DNA of 52,466 nt, taken from Fuerstiella sp. (GTDB lineage Bacteria; Planctomycetota; Planctomycetia; Planctomycetales; Planctomycetaceae). The stretch lies in assembly GCA_029941865.1 (NCBI GenBank), contig JAPYTO010000018.1, positions 1 to 52,466 of the forward strand. Reading direction: 5' to 3'. The notes under the pieces were generated by a model. It did no database searches, had not been told where the DNA came from, and saw nothing but the letters and a program-made list of their open reading frames with translations. The position numbers were made by a program, and so were the translations under genes. Shown piece after piece: positions 13,311-16,006 of this stretch (its first letter is position 1; every line of letters starts with the position of its first letter).

Positions 13311-14195
13311 TTAAACGGCAGAGGTGCGGTCGGAGTCCGAAGCAGAGTCCGGCGGAAGCGGCAGTAGTCCACGCGGAAACAGATGCCGACTTGCCGGAAC
13401 GAAACCGGCGTCTGAATCAAAGTACAGGTAGTGAGTGATCTTCATTGTGTCGGAGTTGAAATCGATCACGTTGAAGCTGTTCTTCTCACGTTCTCGTCCT
13501 CGGCCACGTCGTGACGTTGTTGTCCCGGACTGTACGATAACGATTCCGCGTTCACGGTGGACTCCTGAGTATACATCAAGTGTGTTTCCGATGTAGGCAC
13601 GGTGCAGATGACCTCCCAGAATCATGTCGACGTCGTCCTCAACGAATCGCATGATGGCTCGTTTCGCTTTGGGCATGGTTCGGTCGTACAGATTGTCCGG
13701 TGCCGGAGCGAAGTGATGATGCGCTACCACGATTCTTGCTGCGTCCACAGGTGCCTCGGCAAATACCTGTTCAGCGGTTTCCAGTTGCCACTGATGAATT
13801 CGACCATTGGTGATGGCCGTTCGTGGCGATGATGAGTCGATGCCGACAATGACGGCGTGATCCATGGAGAGCACCGGGTTAATTTCCGGGGAGATGTACT
13901 TCCTGTACAGACCGTGCGAATCGAGGAAACGTTCGCGAATTCGACACAGCGGGACGTCGTGGTTACCGGGAACGTAGAGCCGAGGCACGTCGGGAAGTCG
14001 ATCCAGAAATTCCCGCGCAGCCTGAAACTGTTCTTCCTTCGCTCGCTGTGTAAAGTCACCACTGACGACAATCGCGTCGATGTTCAGATGATGAGCAATT
14101 CGCAGCACGGCCTGTCCTACTTCAGCGATGAATGGTGGGCCGAAGTGAAGGTCGGAAAGATGCAGGATTCTTGCCAGCGGTTGGGAGCGGTGCAT
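13311..14195 (-). CDS. Calcineurin-like metallophosphoesterase, CpdA-type
   Basis: A metallophosphoesterase with all five family blocks in order: D-L-H (ILHLSDLHFG) near residue 15, GD in VVSGDFTQRA, VPGNHD, an AHHHF histidine block, and GGHLHRA. The QRAKEEQF after GDFT is typical of the class III/CpdA-like group, which includes cyclic-nucleotide phosphodiesterases. I chose ATG 14195, giving 294 residues; a GTG at 14243 would add 16 residues. No convincing ribosome binding site decides between them. No signal peptide or membrane segment is seen, so the protein should be cytoplasmic. It stands alone between a decayed region and the divergent lipid genes. The substrate could be a cyclic nucleotide, another phosphodiester or a nucleic acid. 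Confidence 0.87.
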   Translation of the reverse strand: MHRSQPLARILHLSDLHFGPPFIAEVGQAVLRIAHHLNIDAIVVSGDFTQRAKEEQFQAAREFLDRLPDVPRLYVPGNHDVPLCRIRERFLDSHGLYRKYISPEINPVLSMDHAVIVGIDSSSPRTAITNGRIHQWQLETAEQVFAEAPVDAARIVVAHHHFAPAPDNLYDRTMPKAKRAIMRFVEDDVDMILGGHLHRAYIGNTLDVYSGVHRERGIVIVQSGTTTSRRGRGREREKNSFNVIDFNSDTMKITHYLYFDSDAGFVPASRHLFPRGLLPLPPDSASDSDRTSAV

Positions 14196-14437
14196 GGCGA
14201 GGTGCTTTTCAAAGATAATTGATGCCACCCGAAGAGAATGCACACTTCGTACCGGTCGCCACGAAGTGCGATCCCTCAGATTATCAAGCGATTGAGGTCT
14301 GGATCGGCTTGAACGCCTGGCTCATGCCTTCTTGAGTTGAACATAACCTGCCACTCATTCATTCGATACTGTGCAGAAGTGCGAATTCGCACGTCTGCGT
14401 CACGCATTTCCGTTCGCACCAATGGAGCCAATGCGGC

Positions 14438-15325
14438 ATGTTAACTGCAAGTCCGGAAGGTATGCGAACTCTTGCCAAACGACTTTTGTTGCCGTTTCTG
14501 ATCGTTCTGTTCCTGGCGATCATTGCAGTTCTGGCATCACGTTACGCGTCGCTGGACTGGTTTGTTCGTAACGACCGGTGGCTGAGATCAGTCATCAGGG
14601 CGAATCCGGTGACATCGTCGTTCATTGCGTTCGCCATCTATCTGATTGTTTCTCTGGTTCCGGGAACAACAGGCAAGTCGATTGTTCTCGGCTGGTTGTT
14701 TGGACTGCTGGTGGGCGTGATCATTGTGAACACGGCATTGGTGGCGGCGTCACTGGTGACGTTTCTGCTGTGCCGATATTACCTGAAGGCCGAGGTACAG
14801 TCCCGCTTCGGCTTCTACCTGCGACCGATTCAGAGGCGGATGAGGAGTGATGGGACTCTGTATTTGCTGACGCTGCGTCTTGCGCACGCTCCGTTCAGTT
14901 TCATGAACTACGCCGCCGGAGTGGGAACGGACGTTTCTTTCCACACGTTCTGGTGGACGACTCAGCTCGGCCTGCTGCCCGGAAACATCGTGTTCGTCTA
15001 CGCCGGATCTCGGCTGCCGACAATCGAAGAAGCCATTGTCCGCGGCCCATTGGGGCTGTTGGATGGTCCCATGATGCTGGCACCGTGGCTGACGACCTTT
15101 CCGTCTGTGTCGACAGCACGCGGTTTTTTGGTGTCGGTCGCGGCAGGTCTGCTCATCGTGGTGGCGGCGTTTCTCGGAGACATAAACATGTCGGCGATCA
15201 AACGAGATGTTGGCGTGAAGGACGGCAGTTCGATTCTGCCGGGGATGGGAGGGGTCATCGACCGAGTTGACAGTTTAACGTTTACGGCGCCGGCCTTTTA
15301 TTACTTTCTGATTGTCGTCCTCTGA
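14438..15325 (+). CDS. VTT (DedA/TVP38-like) membrane protein fused to the CdsA C-terminal signature
   Basis: Residues about 15-215 are a VTT/DedA-type membrane domain: FAIYLIVSLVPGTTGK, a GWLFGLLVG segment, LRLAHAPFSFMNYAAG and LGLLPGNIVFVYAG. From about 220 the protein changes to the C-terminal hallmark of CDP-diacylglycerol synthase: FLGD (D248), S252-x-x-K255-R256, K261-D262, LPGMGG and D275-R-V-D278. The 27-residue spacing of D248 and D275 matches the two metal-binding aspartates of the Thermotoga enzyme as I recall it. The first two thirds of CdsA are absent. The next gene is a CDP-alcohol phosphatidyltransferase 24 bases on, the enzyme class that consumes CDP-diacylglycerol. The protein is either an internal-deletion chimera of two once-adjacent genes or a genuine new architecture. 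Start ATG has GGAG 10 bases upstream. Confidence 0.8.
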   Translation: MLTASPEGMRTLAKRLLLPFLIVLFLAIIAVLASRYASLDWFVRNDRWLRSVIRANPVTSSFIAFAIYLIVSLVPGTTGKSIVLGWLFGLLVGVIIVNTALVAASLVTFLLCRYYLKAEVQSRFGFYLRPIQRRMRSDGTLYLLTLRLAHAPFSFMNYAAGVGTDVSFHTFWWTTQLGLLPGNIVFVYAGSRLPTIEEAIVRGPLGLLDGPMMLAPWLTTFPSVSTARGFLVSVAAGLLIVVAAFLGDINMSAIKRDVGVKDGSSILPGMGGVIDRVDSLTFTAPAFYYFLIVVL

Positions 15326-15349
15326 AAGATGTTATTGCAGGAAGTCATG

Positions 15350-16006
15350 ATGCCGAATCGCTGCGAACCAATGACCAAGCTGCCTGACGATCCGCTGTCG
15401 TCAAATGGACAGGACCTGCCGAGTCCTTTTAAGGACCGGTACCTGACGATACCGAACGTCATCTGCTTTGCTCGAATCATCGGATCCCTTGCTCTTATTC
15501 TGGTCTCCGCAGCAGGCCATGTTAACGTCTTCGTTATCGGCTATGTTGTCTTCAGTCTCTCTGATTGGGTGGACGGCTGGCTGGCAAGATGGCTGAATCA
15601 GCGTTCTGATTTTGGTGCGAGACTCGACAGCGCTTCCGATGCCGTTCTCAATGCCTGCTTACTGATTGGCAGCCTGATTCTGAAATGGGACGTACTTCAG
15701 GGCGAGCTTGCGTGGTTGCTGATGGCTATCACCAGTTACGCAGTCTCGATGAGCTACGGCCTGTGGAAATACGGGCGTTTCCCCAGTTATCACACCTACG
15801 GCGCAAAAATGACCAATTACCTTGTCCTGGGCGGAGCCGTTGCGATGCTGCTGGACTGGGCCATCTGGCCGCTAAGAATTGCTGCTGTCGCCGGCACGAT
15901 GGCAAATCTGGAAGCGATCGCCATTACATTCGTTCTTCCAACGTGGCGTGCAGATATGCTGACGTTGTTGAGAGTGTTGCCCGGTCGATCCGGAAAGGCT
16001 GACTGA
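15350..16006 (+). CDS. CDP-alcohol phosphatidyltransferase
   Basis: The protein carries the complete family motif D-x2-D-G-x2-A-R-x8-G-x3-D-x3-D: D72, D75, G76, A79, R80, G89, D93 and D97 when started at ATG 15350. These aspartates bind the metals that activate transfer of a phosphatidyl group from CDP-diacylglycerol to an alcohol such as glycerol-3-phosphate, inositol or serine. About six hydrophobic segments place it in the inner membrane. AGGAAG at 15339-15344 favours ATG 15350 (5-base spacing) over ATG 15347 or 15329. It follows the VTT-CdsA' gene closely and is almost certainly co-transcribed. The acceptor alcohol is not evident; the C-terminal region has no recognisable specificity motif. 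Confidence 0.9.
   Translation: MPNRCEPMTKLPDDPLSSNGQDLPSPFKDRYLTIPNVICFARIIGSLALILVSAAGHVNVFVIGYVVFSLSDWVDGWLARWLNQRSDFGARLDSASDAVLNACLLIGSLILKWDVLQGELAWLLMAITSYAVSMSYGLWKYGRFPSYHTYGAKMTNYLVLGGAVAMLLDWAIWPLRIAAVAGTMANLEAIAITFVLPTWRADMLTLLRVLPGRSGKAD

Follow-up and report, generated by a model that had tools for sequence, protein, structure and literature searches.

The reading frame at positions 14438–15325 of the forward strand of the window (the whole 52,466-bp stretch of Fuerstiella sp. DNA analysed here) joins a VTT domain to the end of a CdsA-type CDP-diacylglycerol synthase. It probably arose in this genome's lineage by one in-frame deletion of ∼0.83 kb at a microhomology of 5–9 bp, extending from the end of a VTT gene to the interior of an adjacent YnbB-type cdsA paralog (cdsA2). 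What looks like a novel two-domain protein is therefore most likely an ordinary VTT protein that ends in the stump of a dead enzyme.

Domain organization of the hybrid protein

The hybrid is a single open frame of 295 codons with no internal stop. The first-pass annotation described a VTT domain followed by the CdsA signature with D248 and D275, with the earlier CdsA helices absent, and profile searches agree with that description. Pfam places VTT_dom (PF09335) at residues 81–191 (E = 3.9e-17; 63.3 bits against a curated cut-off of 33.9) and CTP_transf_1 (PF01148) at residues 228–292 (E = 1.8e-21, far above chance). The VTT domain is complete, whereas the CTP_transf_1 match spans only profile positions 198–262 of 264, the last quarter. 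The VTT part (14438–15075, forward strand) shows ∼71% identity to the VTT genes that stand alone in congeners. Like other members of the VTT-domain family (DedA/TVP38 relatives), it has a complete domain scoring above the cut-off, but its last membrane segment has been lost and CdsA sequence stands in its place. The C-terminal remnant (15077–15325, forward strand) is 80–83% identical to the ends of intact cdsA2 genes and retains both metal aspartates. Because the VTT genes of the congeners begin at a methionine equivalent to codon 9 of the hybrid frame, the protein may start at 14462 and have 287 rather than 295 residues. A PHROGs search returned one weak family only, of unknown function, and structure prediction of the hybrid, suggested in the first-pass annotation, was uninformative (AlphaFold2 on a small VTT plus CdsA alignment; mean pLDDT 46.7).

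The CdsA signature in the hybrid reads KRDVGVKDGSSILPGMGGVIDRVD. With an intact ortholog aligned to the Thermotoga maritima CdsA structures (4q2g/4q2e; residues 63–310, E = 1.5e-16), D248 and D275 of the hybrid fall on D219 and D246 of the metal dyad (20 subtracted from the chain numbering, an offset applied here); a review (PMC7018664) prints the second as 249. Unlike the T. maritima enzyme, the hybrid has no N-domain, no M-domain and no first part of the C-domain, including its conserved loop. The canonical CDS signature contains PGHGG (PMC7018664), and the motif KDx5PGHGGx2DRxD is present in the hybrid except for a change of H to M. We also note that PGMGG prevails in the CdsA2 family, with some PGQGG (window positions 15241–15270; orthologs in L033–L035 and L046–L069), and that this site reads PGHGG in Escherichia coli YnbB and PGFGG in the Fuerstiella housekeeping CdsA.

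Separate VTT and cdsA2 genes in relatives

A homologue search for the hybrid covered 39 related genomes. In three congeners (G003, G004 and G007), the first 218–222 and the last 80–88 residues of the hybrid match two different adjoining genes, a VTT gene of ∼222–248 codons followed by a cdsA gene of ∼315–330 codons, in the same order as in the hybrid. A CDP-alcohol phosphatidyltransferase gene lies downstream of cdsA wherever the contig extends that far, and a metallophosphoesterase gene lies upstream in G003 and G007; none was found upstream in G004 within the stretch read. The G004 locus, with VTT and cdsA2 separate and intact, lies on one closed contig. The full arrangement, again with the two genes separate and intact, is also present in another genus of the family (G174). 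Among 25 loci from Planctomycetes, Gamma- and Alphaproteobacteria, Desulfobulbaceae and others, VTT and cdsA are separate and complete in every case where both genes could be read. The ancestral VTT–cdsA–CDP-alcohol order that the first-pass annotation proposed to look for in relatives is therefore there, neither gene being disrupted, and the hybrid can be derived from it by one deletion.

Over 270 residues that include the N-terminal half, the intact CdsA2 of G004 shares 39.6% identity with E. coli YnbB, whereas its match to the housekeeping CdsA of its own genome is confined to the C-terminal part. YnbB is a CdsA paralog (PMC6362211, PMC7018664), and ynbB adjoins a CDP-alcohol phosphatidyltransferase gene, ynbA, as cdsA2 does its own. 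The differences are that the ynbABCD locus of E. coli as annotated has no VTT gene, and that the hybrid retains no more than the final quarter of the enzyme, fused to VTT, with PGMGG for PGHGG.

Both flanking genes of this arrangement are found beside the hybrid. The next gene (15329–16006, forward strand) is an intact CDP-alcohol phosphatidyltransferase, as first annotated (PF01066, E = 9.1e-18; 61% identity to the G004 copy), and its motif D-x2-D-G-x2-A-R-x8-G-x3-D-x3-D reads unbroken. On the other side, the divergent metallophosphoesterase gene (13311–14243, reverse strand; PF00149, E = 6.2e-16) is 83% identical to the G003 copy and is a conserved partner, found beside VTT in nearly all related loci. 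Two features of the phosphatidyltransferase genes are recorded here in their own right. Among close relatives, the window copy sits on the longest branch (0.34, compared with 0.13–0.28), with Tajima tests mostly not significant; this perhaps reflects relaxed constraint after loss of CdsA2. In G007, the match at a contig start (G007:C273:1-573) has two TAG codons in frame, which may be sequence errors or another instance of decay in the four-gene module.

The probable deletion junction

In DNA alignments with G003, G004 and G007, the hybrid region lacks one single stretch of 824–840 bp, and the flanks are colinear. The junction lies at 15076–15083 (forward strand), with the window sequence ATGATGCTGGCACCGTGG; for comparison, G007 has ATGATTCTGGCACTG on the VTT side of the join and G004 has CTGTTGGCCCCGTGG on the cdsA side. 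Common to both sides are a Leu-Ala codon pair and roughly 5–9 bp, and the VTT and cdsA parts are joined in frame.

The main competing explanation is an artefact of assembly or library construction, in which both genes are intact in the organism and the contig skips ∼0.83 kb. We regard this as unlikely, though it deserves serious weight. The assembly is a draft of 612 contigs, 90.5% complete, and the join is private to one sequence among the matches listed. Against an artefact, there is no long repeat at the join to mislead an assembler, only the ∼5–9 bp of microhomology. The overlaps or k-mers used by assemblers are normally longer than 9 bp, so a join at such a short match favors a real deletion. 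Preservation of the frame would moreover be a one-in-three coincidence, and the missing part of cdsA was found on none of the other contigs. The same search of this assembly found neither an intact CdsA2 nor a second allele on other contigs; it does have a housekeeping cdsA, at the end of contig C224.

The state of the CdsA remnant bears on the age of the join. It contains no stop, is as similar to its relatives as these are among themselves, and is not accelerated in a relative-rate test (Tajima tests mostly not significant). This lack of decay, which also counts in favor of an artefact, implies that (i) the deletion is recent, (ii) the tail has been retained or (iii) the join is artefactual.

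Distribution of the fusion

No further VTT–CdsA fusion in one frame was present among the matches listed in 298 genomes of the class, and no second genome with it was found in the related genomes and 25 loci searched. The fusion query gave a spanning match in G032 (L028), which on reading proved to be a 323-residue CdsA-like protein of the ordinary type with no VTT part seen; another spanning match is in G027:C10.

Two origins had been offered in the first-pass annotation: fusion of adjacent genes by internal deletion, which the ancestral order supports, and gain of a lipid-nucleotide module by a VTT protein, which is not supported, as the architecture was found in no other genome searched and what remains of CdsA is without the helices and SPxKTxEG loop of its intact relatives. 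A functional fusion, that is, a VTT lipid transporter with a CdsA-derived tail that binds CTP or CDP-lipid, is very improbable: the signature and both metal aspartates remain and the remnant is conserved to the same degree as in intact relatives, but it has only ∼80 residues, without the loop and earlier helices common to all of them, even the small archaeal CdsA relative CarS has five membrane helices (PMC7018664), and the architecture is private to one genome among the matches listed. Still more remote is the proposal that the hybrid is expressed and selected, its tail binding CTP or CDP-lipid and coupling VTT lipid transport to the CDP-diacylglycerol supply of the adjacent phosphatidyltransferase.

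Probable consequences of the proposed deletion

In the deletion model, a single event of ∼0.83 kb between the end of the VTT gene and the interior of cdsA2 would have fused the remainders in frame. Since its VTT domain is complete, the hybrid probably continues to function as a VTT protein; this part would still fold and work, with CdsA helices serving as the replacement for its last membrane segment. The full-length CdsA domain, with N-domain, M-domain and SPxKTxEG loop, is absent from the hybrid. An SPxKTxEG-type loop occurs in all 27 of 27 intact CdsA2 relatives and falls within the missing stretch. With this loop deleted and the Pfam profile represented by its last quarter alone, catalysis by the CdsA part is very unlikely, and the loss of the N-domain, M-domain and loop would leave it catalytically dead. 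Judged from sequence, the most likely outcome is that VTT function has been kept and CdsA2 function lost.

Loss of this kind is tolerated in the genus: in four of the seven congeners, neither CdsA2 nor its partner phosphatidyltransferase has a good match. The downstream phosphatidyltransferase, if still in use, could be supplied with CDP-diacylglycerol by the housekeeping CdsA.

As a fusion, the hybrid is of little importance, being a private deletion. The genes around it are of wider interest. In the flanks compared, the conserved set that stays together across phyla consists of four genes only: those for the metallophosphoesterase, the VTT protein, the YnbB-type CdsA and the CDP-alcohol phosphatidyltransferase. 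This block is present in Proteobacteria and Desulfobulbaceae (L050–L061, L064, L065, L067 and L069) and in Planctomycetes (L047–L049 and L071). Its genes all point the same way in Proteobacteria, with overlaps of a few bases between some neighbors; the metallophosphoesterase gene is divergent in most planctomycete loci. We found no description of the block in the open-access papers searched. Plausibly, it forms a dedicated pathway for phospholipid synthesis and translocation, in which a VTT protein would act beside CDP-diacylglycerol enzymes, and it offers a testable lead on VTT function.
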